Source: Liolophura sinensis
Lineage: Eukaryota > Mollusca > Polyplacophora > Chitonida > Chitonidae
DNA: 64,000 bases
Assembly (NCBI RefSeq): GCF_032854445.1
Contig: NC_088306.1
Coordinates: forward strand, 29,543,764 to 29,607,763
Reading direction: 5' to 3'
Part shown: positions 29,001 through 47,500 of the stretch, piece by piece
Layout: every line of letters starts with the position of its first letter
Position numbering within the stretch: the first letter of the stretch is position 1
Made by a program: the position numbers and the translations under genes
Notes under the pieces: generated by a model
The model's database searches: none
What the model was told of the DNA's origin: nothing
What the model saw: only the letters and a program-made list of their open reading frames with translations

Positions 29001-32000
29001 CACCCATTAAAACGGTGTTTTAAATTTGTGTTCTCTTTGACCTGTTTGGTGTTTGCATTGTGATTCCCTTTTCCTTCCAGACAACATTTTTACAAATGTA
29101 GGAAAGGCAGTTCACGAGTGGATGTGTGATCATCATGCTATCGCCAGGCTCTCGTTACGGTGTTAAAAACCTGTATAACAGCTGCTACCGAATCTTTGAA
29201 TCGTTTAAAGCAATAAGCCGCATTAATATTCCCGACGGCGGGAAAAAAATGGAGGCTTTGAGCGGTGAACATTGTGACCTTTGCCCCGAGCCACACAAGC
29301 GAGGATAAGCCCAAGTCATTTTCTCCAATACTTCCTCGTATTTGATAGGCCGAGGCTAAAAGCAAATGTCCTCGGCTTAAGCCACCAAACCCCCGCCTAA
29401 CGACCTTAGATCCTTATAATTTGCACCAACGCGACACTGCAAACTTTTAGCACTGCAACTCAGTCCCAAATGCTACATGGCCACTAAGCATTGGTCTCTA
29501 TCATGTCCAAACTCGGTGAGAGCACCCGTAAGATCTTGATCAATTCTTGACCTCCCTGAGACAACAGCTGCCATGGTACTTGGCAGTAGGGACGTCACTC
29601 TGAGCCCCATCATTACCTGACGTCTATTGCTCTCGCGCCAAGAATTTTTTACTTTCATAAGTAAAGCTCTGTCTTGTGCAGACGTTGATTAATTTCCATA
29701 GTTTTCATACCAAGCGTGCAACTGTAGGCCCTACACCACAAGGCGAGGGCCGACAGCAAACACAGACTTCATACCGTAACTGAAGTATACAAAAGTGGAT
29801 GGAAAGTAGAAGTGATATTAGAGGCTGTATCCCTGATGCCAATAATGTTTGACTGGCTCATTGTCACAGATCCATTATTATAAATTTCCAGTGATGCTAA
29901 AGTCTGACGCTCTGATTCATGATTGTGTCTAATTAGGCTTAACCCGGCGCTAGGGCCTGAATATTCATCGTGTTGCATTAGATCGCCACGTTGGGTTATA
30001 TGAACCATCAAAGCTCAACTGAAATGCATATTTTGTTATCGACAACTAATATCTAGCATGGTACACGATTTGAATACTGATTTCATTCAGTCGACTAAAA
30101 CATTGCGTTTTTCCAAAATCATTGGAGACTGTTGACTGCTTCTCTTTGTATGATTCCGTCCTATTTTCGTGCTTTATATACTTTCTTAGCTCTTTGCTGG
30201 TGTGTATTAGACGTCGTTTTGGAACTGAACTTGCGATTACTGGCCTGGAACTTCCATCTTGGTTGACAGCTGATATGCAAAAGCCTGTTTTGAAGAATAG
30301 ATTCAACTTACTGAATTTCTAACAACCCACAACCCTCACTAGTTGACGACTGGTATATGAATATCAGTTTCGACACACAGCTCAACCATTTAAAATTAAA
30401 GTGCCATGTGTTATTTCACTGGTCTTAGAAAATGCTTCTAAAAGCTCATCCTGGAAAGCCAATGAATGTGCGTCTTTTTTATATCAAAAGTAAACTTGGT
30501 GAGAAATGTGTTTCACGTTACAGCACTTTAAGGGCATTAGTGGAACTAGGAACTTTAAGGGCATTAGTGGAACTAGGAACTTTAAGGGCATTAGTGGAAC
30601 TAGGAACTTTAAGGGCATTAGTGGAACTAGGAACTTTAAGGGCATTAGTGGAACTAGGCACTTTAAGGCATTAGTGGAACTAAGAACTTTAAGGGCGTCA
30701 GTGGAACTGGGAATTTTAAGGGCATTAGTGGAACTAGGAACTATAAGGGCATTAGTGGAACTAGGAACTTTAAGGCGTCTGTAGAACTAGGAACTTTAAG
30801 GGCATTTGTTGAACGAGGAACTTTAAAGGCATTATTGGAACGAGGACTTTAAGGGCATTAGTGGAACGAGGGAACTTTAAGGGCATTAGTGGAACTAGGA
30901 ACTTTAAGGCCATTAGTGGAACTAGGAACTTTAAGGGCGTCTGTAGAACTATGGAACTTTAAGGGCATTTGTTGAACGAGGAACTTTAAAGGCATTATTG
31001 GAACGAGGAACTTTAAGGGCATTAGTGGAACGAGGAACTTTAAGGGCATTAGTGGAACTAGGAACTTTAAGGCCATTAGTGGAACTAGGAACTTTAAGGG
31101 CGTCAGTGGAACTAGGAACTTTAAGGGCATTAATGGAACGAGGAACTTTGAAGGCATTAGTGGAACGAGGAACTTTAAGAGCATTAGTGGAACGAGGAAC
31201 TTTAAGGGCATTAGTGGAACTAGGAACTCATTCTTTTTTTGTTATTTACATGGATATTATATGGTACTTTAAAAAGTATTACATTCGATCTATACGATGT
31301 TAACTTCCTTTCCCTGGTTAAAAGTGAAGAGACGATCAAAATAATAGTGACAAGAGCATACTGTCTGGGTTGTATTTTTTTTCATAGTTTTGTTTAAGGC
31401 AGGCAGATCTATAGAGGGCGTAAAAAGCTGTCAGTGTTTAAGCATTTTATATGAACAGATGGAATAAAACCCTAACTAAGGTAAATTGACAAGAAGATTT
31501 GATTTCAAAAGTTACGCGTAACCATTTGCCAACCGTCACACTGTCTTCGCAGCTCGCGTTTTACTCTCCATGCTGTAGTCTTTCATATTATTTAAAGTAA
31601 TATAGAATCGTTGATGCTCTGTGAGATATGCAATACTTAACTAAGATAAATTTTAGGTACTGTAGATATATTCCCTGTTACAAAGGTAGAATATTTAATT
31701 CTGAATCTCCTATCTTCTCTGTCAGCATTCAGCATCGTTTCTGTCTTTATTGTCAACCAATCAGCTGGTGAAACTACTGAACTGTTAACATTCTGTTTAA
31801 TTCATGTTTCTGAATATCTGATGGATTAGTAAATGTAATCTTACAGGTTTAGCGGCAGCAAAACTTCTCAAGGAACAAGGATACAATGTGGCTGTACTGG
31901 AGGCACGTGACCGAGTCGGTGGTCGGACTTACCACGATCCAGGTCAGAAATCATTCGACAATCTCCACCAGTTTGCTCGTGCATAATTGTGGCATTTACA

Positions 32001-41551: not shown

Positions 41552-44500
41552 ATACGAACCCTTATGAATAAAAAAAGGACATCTGTTATGAATTCTTTGT
41601 ATCATGAACATTTTCTTCTTTTTTGGGTGAACAGGAGAGGAAATTTGTCGGCGGATCCCAGCAACTGAGTTTCAAGTTAGCGGAGCGAATAGGTCCTGGT
41701 AAGGCCATTGCGCACGCGCAGACAACAATAGGAATGGCGTTAAATGCCTTTGTCTTCTTAACTCCTACGGTAGATTCATGAGCAGCTTTTAATCCGATAA
41801 ATTCTCTCCGTTCGAATGTTTTTTTGTTTTCCGTACAGGACACGACTGAATTAATTAGCACTACACTCTTCAGAAAAATGGTTCTCTACGGAACTGTAAA
41901 ATGTTCTTTGGCTTTTATCACCTCAGAACTCCTGTGGTACTATAAAGAACCCTTTAACATGGATAGACATGGTCCATTGACATGGTTCTATAACAAACTC
42001 TTTCTACATCAAGAGGGTTAACTATAGAACCAATTTAACGCAAAGGTTCTATTTATATCCATGTATATTCTTGTTTTCCAAATGCCAGTTAAGTCAGCAG
42101 TGCAAACTAATTTTGTGATTCACACATAATTAGTGCCAGTGAAGCTATTCCGTATGAGTTTTTTTAGACATTCTAAACTGAGGACAGCCTTCAAAATGCT
42201 GTCTAATGTGGGATTTATAATTTACAAAATCACGGCTTCTGTTTTATGAATTCCTCGGTGCCGTTAAACAATGGTCATTAAGCTGTACACATACAAATGA
42301 TGGTCATTAAGCTGTATACATACAAACAATGACCAATGACCATTAAGCTGTATACATACAAATGATGGTCATTAAGCTGTATACATACAAACGATGATCA
42401 TTAAGCTGTATACATACAAACGATGACCATTAAGCTGTATACATACAAACGATGACCATTAAGCTGTATACATACAAACGATGACCATTAAGCTGTATAC
42501 ATACAAACGATGACCATTAAGCTGCATACATACAAACGATTACTATTAAGCTGTATATATACAAACAATGACCAATGACCATTAAGCTGCATGCATACAA
42601 ATGATGACCATTAAGCCGTATACGTACAAACGATGATCATTAAGCTGTATACATACAAACAATGACCAATGACCATTAAGCTGCATGCATACAAATGAAG
42701 ACCATTAAGCTGTATACGTACAAACGATGATCATTAAGCTGTATACATACAAACAATGACCATTAAGCTGTATACATACAAACGATGATCATTAAGCTGT
42801 ATACATACAAACAATGACCATTAGGTTGTATACATACAAACGATGACCATTAAGCTGTATACATACAAACGATGACCATTAAGCTGTATACATACAAACG
42901 ATGACCATTAAGCTGTATACATACAAAGGATGATCGTTAAGCTGCATCATACAAACGATGACCATTAAGCTGTATACATACAAAGGATGATCATTAAGCT
43001 GTATATTTCTATCATGCTGGCTTCCTATCCGGCCGTACATGGGAAGGTCTGTCAGCAATTTGCGGAGGGTCGTGGGTTTCCCCGCGTTCACCCCGGTTTA
43101 CTACTACCAAAATGCTGGCCGCTATCATCTAAGTGAAATATTCTTGAGTACGGCGTAAAACACCAATCAAGTAAATAGAAATAAATAAATAAATAAACAA
43201 ACAAACAAAAACAAATAAATAAATCATTTACTCTGTTTTAGACAATATCCTGTTGAACCGTCCAGTCGTCAAGGTGGAGCAGACGGATAAAGATGTCACC
43301 CTGCAAGACGTCCATGGCAACAAATACGTCGTACGTAGTGATGTTCTTATGTCATTGACATGTGTTTCTCAAAGTGTTCTTTATTCTGCATACCGCCATC
43401 TCTTAATCCGCGTTGAATATGAACAGACCTATAGGAGATAAAGCACAGATATTGAAACCAGACCATTGCCGGCAATGTAATAGATTACAAATGTTAACCC
43501 CTACATGTAACCGACGCTATCCAGCCTCTTGTCAGTTTAGAGTTTTGTTTCAACTGTGTACATAAATACTTAAGTATTTGCAGCTTACGCGTCTCCCAGT
43601 AACATGACCTAAGCAGAATTAGTTAAGAAATAAAATGCAGTGATGTTAATTGCAATTTATTAGACGTCACTAGTCTAGAATTACTCAAAATGCCGTCTCT
43701 TTCGCAGGCCTCACGTGTCATCATAGCCAGTCCACTTCCGCTTCAACAGAAGATGATCTACGAACCCCCACTTCCGGCCCGCCGTAACCAGCTGATATCA
43801 CGTGTACCCATGGGATCAGTCATCAAGACCTTTGTGTACTACAAAACTGCCTTCTGGAGAGAAAAGGGTAGACTTACACGAAATAGTGATGTGAAAGTCA
43901 ATTTATAAAAATCTAAAACCAAAGTTTTGTTATCATCAAGTTTTATTTGGCTGAATCCTTTACCCTATTTAAACGTTTTAATCGGATATCATAGGAAAAA
44001 TATAATGGTAGAATTCGACACATAGCTCTAGTGGCATATAATGACATTACAGTGTGACTGGCCGGGGTGTCATGTCTGGTGTCTTCCTCATGGTTTTCAA
44101 GTGAGGCAGCACTATAAATGTGTCCGCATTAGGACTGGTTTGCTACTTTGGCAAGCTAATTCTGGAAATGAATTCAATATATCTGGAAATAAATTGAAGA
44201 TATCTCTGTCAGGCTCAATCGGCTTACCTTATGCTACAAATCACCGATCATCATGCTATGGCCGAAATATTATTAAAATTTACATGAAAGCGCAAGCACA
44301 TGATAGAAGCAGTTATACTGAATAGGCTTGATTGCAGGCAGAGTTGTTTTATTTTCCAGGATATTCGGGTTTGTCAGCAATAGATGATGAAGACGGTTTA
44401 ATAGGATTCTCGATGGATGACACCAAACCAGACGGTTCACACCCAGCTCTTATCGCGTAAGTCTAAGTATTGCCTGTTGCAGAAATATCAAAATTTTGCT

Positions 44501-47500
44501 TACACATTAAAATATTTCACACTTTCCAATACCACATTTGGTAATACAGGTGGCAGAAGAGGCCAGAACGTATGTCAGCTGCATGTTCTTTATTGGAAAC
44601 ACGTCAAATGCTGAGGGGTCTCCGGGGCTCAGTTGGTTAGCGCTCTAGCGCATCGTAATTACCCAGGAGCCTCTCATCGATGCGGTCGCTGTGAGTTTAT
44701 GTCCAGCTCATTTCAGCTTTATTCTGGCAGACCGAGCCAGAACATATTGTTGATTTTTATTATTGAAAACAAGGTCCAGCTCACGATGGCTTCCTCTCCG
44801 ATCGTACGTGGAAAGGTCCGTCAGCAGCCTGTGGATGGTCGTGGGTTTCCACGGACTTCCTCGGTTTTATCCCACTATAATTCTGGCCACCGCTGTATAA
44901 GTGAAACATTTTTTTATTACGGCATAAAACTCCAATCAAACAAACAAATTATTAAATACCATGTTATATGCTGAGCATTGTGTTTATCTTCTAAACACCT
45001 GCTGGGTATTTGTGTTACTCAGATGATCGTACTGGGTTTTGTCTACATTTCAGCTTTATCCTGGCAGACCGAGCAAGGACGTATTGTCAGCTTACCAGAG
45101 AGGAACGTAAGAAAAGGATATCAGCGGTGTATGCCAAAGTATTCAAGTCTCCAGAAGGGTTAAATGTGAGTAAAACGATCAGTAAAAAACCTACAGTAGT
45201 CATCAGATTGATCACTGAAAACTGTATAACACAAACCACCAAAGAACTGTAAAGAAGTATATAAAGTATGAAAACAGGACGGAATCATGCAAAGAGAAGC
45301 AGTCAACGGTTTTCATTGATGTTGGAAAGACGCAAGGTATGTTCTGGGCGAGTGAGTAAAACCAGTATTCAAATCCTGTACCATGCTAAAATATCAGTTG
45401 TCGATAACAACACATATATCTCAGTTTGCGCTTTAATTGCAACAATTCATATATCCAATGTGTCGATCTAATTCAACACGATGACTAAACAGCTCCTAAC
45501 CCCGTGTTAAGCGGTACTGGATAACATTTTTAGATAATTTTTTTGGATAAATGTGTCCTCTTTTGTTTTTCTCACTTATTCTTTACTACTTTTCCAAGTA
45601 CTCATTCCATAAAGTAATTCTGAGTTAAGTCTAAAATGAAAAAGGGGCCTCCGGGGCTCAGTTGGTTAGTGCGCTAGCGCAGCGTAAGGACCCGTGAGTC
45701 TCTCACGAATGCGGTCGCTGTGAGTTCCAGTCCACCTTAATGCTGGCTTCCTCTCCAGCCGCACGCGGGAAGGTTTGTCAGCAACCTGCGGATGGCCGTG
45801 GGATTTTTCCAGGCTCTGCCCGGTTTCCTCCCATCATAATGCTGGCCGCCGTCGTATAAGTGAAATATTCTCGAGTACAGCGTAAAACACCAATCAAATA
45901 AATAAATAAATAAAACAAAAAAATGAAAAACTTGATGAAAAGTTCTGCCTAGGCCTAAATTGCCGTGATATTGTGGTTACCATGTATTAATTCTCCCAGG
46001 CCTAAATTGTCGTGATAATTTGGTTACTATGTATTAATTTTCCCAGATTACGCTGTTGGATGGTTACATTTCCCATCCTGGGTCCAACCAATAGCACTTA
46101 AATCACGTTTTAAATTTCAAGAATTATCAAAAATTTGACCTGAAGCTAATATGTTTACACTTGGCTGAAATGATATGAGCACAGCAGAAAATCATCGGTC
46201 AATTTTCTTATCGATTTCCATGGTGCATATGTAAATTTTAGAGCTTTATTTTAGTTACAATTTTAGGCTAAACAGGAAAGCCCTTCGTGAAACGGATCCC
46301 AAGTCATGTACTTTGAACTTAATCAAAGGGAGATCACTGTGATATATTTTAAGGCAACGAAAACACTAGCATCAAGTACATGTCATATGAAAGACCAATA
46401 AACACTGCCAATGAAAATAGCTCGATTAATTTTTTCAGGCCAGAAAAATCTTTTGATTCTATGATGACCTTTTCTGGTCATATTTGTACCAGTGACGTCA
46501 CATCCGGGTTTTGTCACTTTACACACATGGACGGCTGCATTTACATATAGATCTATGCATGTATTCGCCGAATGATCCTTGAAACGAATTATTTGGAGCC
46601 AAATACATGTTTGTCACCTAACTAATACCCTCTTAGTCACTACAGACCACCATAGAATTTCATGTATAAAAACATTTTACTACTGTAGGTTGGATATATT
46701 CTAAAACGATTAAGGTAAACTACATGTATTTTCCTGCACAGTTTCTAATGTTCTTTCATCTGATGTGATTCTTTGTCTTTAACAAGTCTTACGTAGGCCA
46801 GATTTCCCCAGTTATGTGTGACCATTTGCCATCCTAGGCCAGATTTCCCCAGTTATGTGTGACCATTTGCCATCCTAGGCCAGATTTCCCCAGTTATGTG
46901 TGATGATTTGCCATCCTAGGCCAGATTTCCCCAGTTATGTGTGACGATTTGCCATCCTAGGCCAGATTTCCCCAGTTATGTGTGATGATTTGCCATCCTA
47001 GGCCAGATTTCCCCAGTTATGTGTGACCATTTGCCATCCTAGGCCAGATTCCCCCAGTTATGTGTGATGATTTGCCATCCTAGGCCAGATTTCCCCAGTT
47101 ATGTGTGACCATTTGCCATCCTAGGCCAGATTCCCCCAGTTATGTGTGACCATTTGCCATCCTAGGCCAGATTCCCCCAGTTATGTGTGATGATTTGCCA
47201 TCCTAGGCCAGATTTCCCCAGTTATGTGTGACCATTTGCCATCCTAGACCAGATTCCCCCAGTTATGTGTGATGATTTGCCATCCTAGGCCAGATTTCCC
47301 CAGTTATGTGTGACCATTTGCCATCCTAGGCCAGATTTCCCCAGTTATGTGTGACCATTGCCATCGTAGGCCAGATTTCCCCAGTTGTGTGTGACCATAT
47401 GCCATCCTAGGCTAGATTCCCCCAGTTATGTGTGATGATTTGCCATCCTAGGCCAGATTTCCCCAGTTATGTGTGACCATTTGCCATCCTAGTCCAGATT

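Follow-up and report, generated by a model that had tools for sequence, protein, structure and literature searches.

The intron that separates exons 10 and 11 of a monoamine oxidase (MAO) gene in the chiton Liolophura sinensis contains a copy of coding sequence, the beginning of exon 11, together with its splice acceptor, and this copy is sited inside a SINE. We consider it likely that the insert is neighbouring DNA that was pasted in during the repair of a chromosome break. The evidence comes from a window of 64,000 nucleotides (contig NC_088306.1, positions 29,543,764 to 29,607,763 of the forward strand; positions given below are those of the window), from searches of the whole genome (609,464,459 bases in 632 contigs) and from relatives of the host SINE.

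The copied fragment and its host SINE

By homology the gene is a monoamine oxidase: exons 10 and 11 jointly match the solved structures of MAO-A and MAO-B (best E 3e-14), three exons are assigned to the Pfam family Amino_oxidase (1.1e-17), and further MAO exons can be read in the window, the C-terminal one included. The exon numbers are those of an earlier, sequence-only reading of the same DNA, and the gene model used here is partial. Exon 10 (44360-44456, plus strand), which lies upstream of the intron, was delimited by its translation, an TTTTCCAG acceptor and a GTAAGT donor; its first codon is split, and it reads as (G), 31 further residues and a final GC. Upstream of the first MAO exon found, a long repetitive stretch with several open frames (ISGTRNFKG and ELGTLRALV repeats) occupies 30429-31300.

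The donor segment (45046-45087, plus strand) consists of CA, the acceptor TTTCAG (45048-45053) and the first 34 nt of exon 11, itself 112 nt long (45054-45165). It matches 44709-44750 at 38 of 42 positions without a gap, and this match, on which the sequence-only reading was built, is genuine. The acceptor is indeed part of it; the exonic portion, described there as the first 12 codons, comprises the last base of a split codon and 11 whole codons. The four differences (ATC/ATT, GCA/GCC, AGG/AGA and ACG/ACA, exon 11 given before the insert) all fall at third positions and are all synonymous, as had been claimed, and the leading CA belongs to the flanking repeat and lies outside the insert proper. 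A chance origin of the match is ruled out: a 27-nt pattern spanning most of it, with up to three mismatches allowed, occurs at two sites only in the window and in 0 of 100 shuffles. Used as a DNA query against the 609-Mb genome, the insert found itself and exon 11 only (E 8.7e-8), and the query with exon 11 agreed, returning the same two places; such DNA searches are blind to strongly decayed copies, and the exon 11 query did not list the one at 44551-44601 that is described below. When ten stretches of MAO exon were scanned against the window, exon 11 alone had a clear second copy (score 66, the insert itself), the best scores of the other nine, obtained without shuffle controls, being 33-46.

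The host SINE (44615-44940, plus strand), delimited by alignment with 20 genomic copies and by blastn with their consensus, belongs to a family named from no library; annotated SINE copies in this genome number 85,584 (PMC11068029). Repeat finding placed a 16-nt target-site duplication around it (44600-44615, plus strand, and 44960-44975, 81% identical), the left copy of which shares two bases with the end of the decayed exon-11-like sequence. The SINE departs from the consensus of its relatives at 37 of 250 positions (14.8%), the 18 relatives themselves departing by 1.2-7.1%; that consensus was built from these 18, with L026, L028 and the second copy in the window left out, and is biased because the relatives were picked as the best matches to the host.

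Within the SINE, the 63-bp insert (44711-44773, plus strand) begins with TTTCAG and the 34 nt of exon 11 (44711-44750) and continues into a 23-nt tail (44751-44773) that may be filler or may come from a second donor. The insert is framed, as the sequence-only reading had noticed, by two SINE-derived copies of the 10-bp sequence GTCCAGCTCA, one on the left (44701-44710) and one on the right (44774-44783), both on the plus strand and with 63 bp between them. These are copies of a duplicated target: each of the 20 SINE relatives that were fetched, which stood in for the empty site of a related species, carries GTCCAGCTCA exactly once and lacks the insert (L026 is without its 5' part and L028 is short at the 3' end). 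In blastn with the consensus, the two halves of the host SINE overlap by 11 consensus positions at the break. Among the 35 SINE copies found by blastn, 23 in the window and 12 in eight amine-oxidase stretches of the genome, the host is the only one interrupted by 15-700 bp. The insert lies 272 bp from its donor; its left junction shows a CA microhomology, which with 2 nt alone could be chance; TTTCAG stands at its start and TTGAAAACAAG at its 3' end, and neither end carries a poly(A) or poly(T) run of at least 5.

Two other explanations of this architecture were rejected. A mobile 63-bp family finds no further copies in the genome and no inverted repeats listed within the insert. For a break hot spot at GTCCAGCTCA, two copies of that sequence spaced by 45-75 nt gave 53 matches in the genome against 4 for a control pattern, and among the matches listed the others were classed by eye as tandem arrays or internal SINE duplications, apart from one (C1:87.47 Mb) that was placed in neither class. 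A GTCCAGCTCA-framed 50-nt insert in L033, which was tested by script, is a tandem repeat. A tandem array of 59-bp period occupies C9:17607051-17607886; by eye, its unit seems to come from the same SINE, and the array looks like a satellite born of a SINE piece.

A third, decayed exon-11-like sequence

Just upstream of the SINE, and outside it, lies a third exon-11-like sequence (U, 44551-44601, plus strand), which is more diverged than the insert and is absent from the sequence-only reading. From TGGCAGA to TGTCAGCT it is like exon 11, after which comes a tail like that of the insert, and its resemblance to the insert extends from TGGCAGA to AAACA. We take U as real, though not as certain. Dinucleotide shuffling of the SINE-free intron (240 nt) reached the score of U against the insert 2 times in 20,000; against exon 11, the corresponding counts were 2 of 20,000 for the piece 45048-45102 and 241 of 20,000 for the shorter piece 45048-45087. 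With looser gap costs, the score with U was reached in 0 of 1000 shuffles for the insert and in 177 of 1000 for exon 11. Repeat finding groups U, the insert and exon 11 as a family of three copies. In a window scan whose query (44712-44774) was shifted by one base from the insert, U was the best further match (43 against 36); the like scan with exon 11 placed U scarcely above chance (34 against 33), and a genome search with 44500-44614 returned nothing but that segment itself. U has an open frame of 11 residues. As a live alternative exon it was rejected: inspected by eye, it has no acceptor in the phase required by exon 10.

The tail of the insert agrees with that of U at 15 of 19 positions, a level equalled by 6 of 7,046 A+T-matched windows and by 25 of 9,093 windows overall, the tail window having been chosen after the alignment had been seen. 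Within about 5 kb on either side, one place on the minus strand ties with U's tail, and for the tail alone, anywhere in the intron, the figure is a weak 747 of 20,000. Since the two tails are alike, the patch may be a chimera. CAGC is present in U and in exon 11 and missing from the insert, so that a simple two-template copy cannot account for every letter; the tail may be of either origin, filler or U, all the same. A further reading, which we hold to be unlikely, is that the intron upstream of exon 11 was seeded with the start of that exon on more than one occasion and that U and the SINE insert go back to a single extra exon-like unit, the exon start and the non-exonic tail that they share then pointing to that common unit. 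If this were true, the unit would be a lost alternative exon or a repair hot spot, kept long enough to leave both an old and a younger copy.

The synonymous differences and the search for another donor

In the sequence-only reading, the restriction of the differences to synonymous positions was taken to suggest a donor that had diverged under selection, such as a paralogous MAO gene. The pattern is indeed improbable (P 0.0035) if the insert was neutral and took all of the changes, the case on which that argument depends; the argument loses strength when the exon is constrained and the insert neutral, for which, with no polarity assumed, P is 0.024-0.046 (all such probabilities assume a transition weight of 2). 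At the four codons in turn, the third bases of exon 11, the insert and L003, an amine-oxidase stretch at C12:23.26 Mb, are C/T/C, A/C/C, G/A/A and G/A/A, and U, which cannot be aligned at the first site, reads GCC AGA ACG at the other three, with third bases C, A and G. Since U and L003 side with the insert at the second and third of these codons (GCC and AGA in U, third-position C and then AGA in L003), these two changes probably took place in exon 11, whose GCA and AGG would be the derived codons. For ATC/ATT, L003 points to a change in the insert; for ACG/ACA the outgroups conflict, U pointing to the insert and L003 to the exon. This polarity evidence is thin, the silent sites of L003 being probably saturated and U decayed. 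Changes in exon 11 are confined to synonymous ones because the protein is kept; for two changes in the insert, the probability that both are synonymous by chance is 0.06-0.09. As the exon itself can supply synonymous changes, an all-synonymous set is not in itself proof of a paralogous donor.

A donor elsewhere was sought with the DNA of the insert, the DNA and protein of the exon and the Pfam family, and tblastn was run against eight amine-oxidase stretches (L002-L009, of which L006 and L007 overlap) that were taken, with the window, from 46 listed family matches. L003 is the only one of the eight to match exons 9, 10, 11 and 14; in the remaining seven, exon 14 is matched with E 4e-6 to 0.001, and no exon 11 match is better than E 0.76. 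The exon 11 counterpart in L003 is 61% identical over 18 amino acids, and of 33 coding bases it shares 21 with the insert and 19 with exon 11, whereas the insert and exon 11 share 29; in the comparison with MAO paralogues that the sequence-only reading had proposed, exon 11 itself was nearer to the insert than any of the eight stretches. At 3585-3708 of L003, the counterparts of exons 10 and 11 run on free of an intron, offset by a one-base frame shift, the mark of either a pseudogene or a sequence error; having no intron here, L003 has no TTTCAG acceptor to donate. The exon 11 protein found only itself in the whole genome, a search that is weak as a negative because it missed the counterpart in L003.

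Capture from a diverged MAO paralogue, as had been proposed, and possibly from one since lost from the genome, is a reading that we regard as quite improbable: the DNA searches of the genome turned up no other match, and L003, the sole MAO-like paralogue examined, is intronless here and matches the insert at 21 of 33 bases only. A coding donor would predict the all-synonymous differences, which otherwise have P of about 0.02-0.05; L003 has the third base of the insert at three of the four sites; and a tail common to the insert and U, and not found in exon 11, would suit a shared donor with another 3' end. Such a donor must, however, have had the same intron and acceptor and yet be missing from the assembly, or too diverged in it.

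Origin and fate of the insert

Repair of a chromosome break is the origin that we favour. A break staggered by about 10 nt would have opened the SINE at GTCCAGCTCA; repair synthesis, primed by the 2-nt CA match and templated on the start of exon 11 downstream, would have copied 40 nt, through the acceptor and into the exon, and would then have added 23 nt as filler or by a template jump to U's tail, about 170 bp upstream; rejoining of the filled-in end would have left the 10-bp duplication. The patch would be inert intronic scrap, and since the insertion the synonymous changes would have come to two or three in exon 11 and to one or two in the scrap. In accordance with such a repair, the insert is a non-repeat sequence of 63 bp, above a minimum of 50 bp, within a transposon; in the DNA searches, which do not reach decayed copies such as U, it matches a single other genomic site; its donor lies more than 50 bp and less than 5 kb away, and breakpoint signs of the repair type are present on both sides, the CA microhomology on the left and the 23-nt tail on the right. 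The available text of Pace et al. 2009 (PMC2671141) describes proximal duplications into transposons with microhomology of 2-9 nt, filler of 1-68 nt and target duplications of 4-21 nt, the last a minority outcome present in 6 of 39 inspected proximal cases; it reports 20 two-donor chimeras and, among 824 cases, 4 partial exon/intron donors. Against repair, a target duplication is typical of retrotransposition, the all-synonymous differences have only P 0.024-0.046 under the repair model, U and L003 conflict at the fourth site, the lack of CAGC does not follow from a simple two-template copy, and L003 agrees with the insert at most of the four sites and is slightly nearer to it than to exon 11. 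This leaning of L003 would also be expected of a coding donor, though the silent sites of L003 are probably saturated.

The target duplication brings in the possibility that a fragment of unspliced transcript was retrotransposed by a LINE enzyme, in the manner of class 1 templated insertions, which carry duplications of at least 5 bp according to the available text of PMC5110952. We judge this very improbable, as the insert ends in TTGAAAACAAG with no poly(A) and its donor is close by; moreover, poly(A/T) was found in none of the 39 proximal duplications inspected in the portions available of Pace et al. 2009 (PMC2671141), where they were interpreted as products of repair. Two events rather than one are invoked if the insert is an older intronic duplicate that began as a copy of U, tail included, and whose 5' 42 nt were later overwritten by exon 11 through gene conversion. 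The likeness of the insert to U, which starts at TGGCAGA and runs through the whole tail, at the shuffle frequency given above, would suit this sequence of events; so would the 5' part of the insert, which fits exon 11 (38/42) far more closely than it fits U (78% identity across 23 nt). Filler or a chance tail, however, needs a single event, and counts this low do not oblige us to assume a second; this reading seems to us improbable.

A functional poison exon at 44717-44773, predicted from the sequence, is extremely improbable in our estimation. The arithmetic of the proposal stands: the span is 57 nt, and the TGA at 44751-44753 shares the frame of exon 10. TTTCAG is intact, and the pyrimidines upstream of it (11 of 16), against expectation, are no fewer than those of exon 11 (10 of 16). 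The candidate donor, AAG|GTCCAG, nevertheless appears to fit the consensus at GT alone, where the neighbouring exons use GTAAGT and GTGAGT, an extra AG stands 10 nt upstream of the copied acceptor, and the segment shows no sign of constraint. Judged in this way, by simple inspection of the splice sites and not by a trained splice model, a splicing function of the insert is unlikely.

Exon duplication can yield mutually exclusive or poison exons. The present case is like it in placing an extra exon start and acceptor in the adjoining intron, and differs from it in that 34 of the 112 nt of the exon were copied, with a very poor donor site and a frame closed by TGA. The closest likeness, on the repair reading, is to repair-mediated duplication as set out in the available text of Pace et al. 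2009 (PMC2671141): unique DNA in a transposon copy, one proximal donor within 5 kb, microhomology, filler, a short target duplication and no poly(A), with partial exon donors and two-donor chimeras also reported there. The insert is nonetheless small, with 63 bp, 40 of them matching the donor, against a proximal median there of 147 bp; it has the target duplication that most proximal cases in that text lack; and it comes from a mollusc, whereas vertebrates were surveyed there. Templated sequence insertion polymorphisms (PMC5110952) are likewise templated patches, with a target duplication in class 1 and junction microhomology in class 2, yet in the available text their donors are distant, class 1 has poly(A) and class 2 lacks target duplication, whereas the present insert combines a nearby donor with a target duplication and lacks poly(A). 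Neither this locus nor events of the kind in chitons were found among the matches listed in the literature on templated insertions and repair-mediated duplication, short lists that leave room for prior print.

The insert is most likely an accident of a known kind, now in a mollusc. It offers a small, clean case in which a splice acceptor and some coding sequence were apparently copied into an intron by break repair, outside the vertebrates surveyed by Pace et al., and it indicates that wholly synonymous differences between an exon and such a scrap can arise partly from change in the exon.
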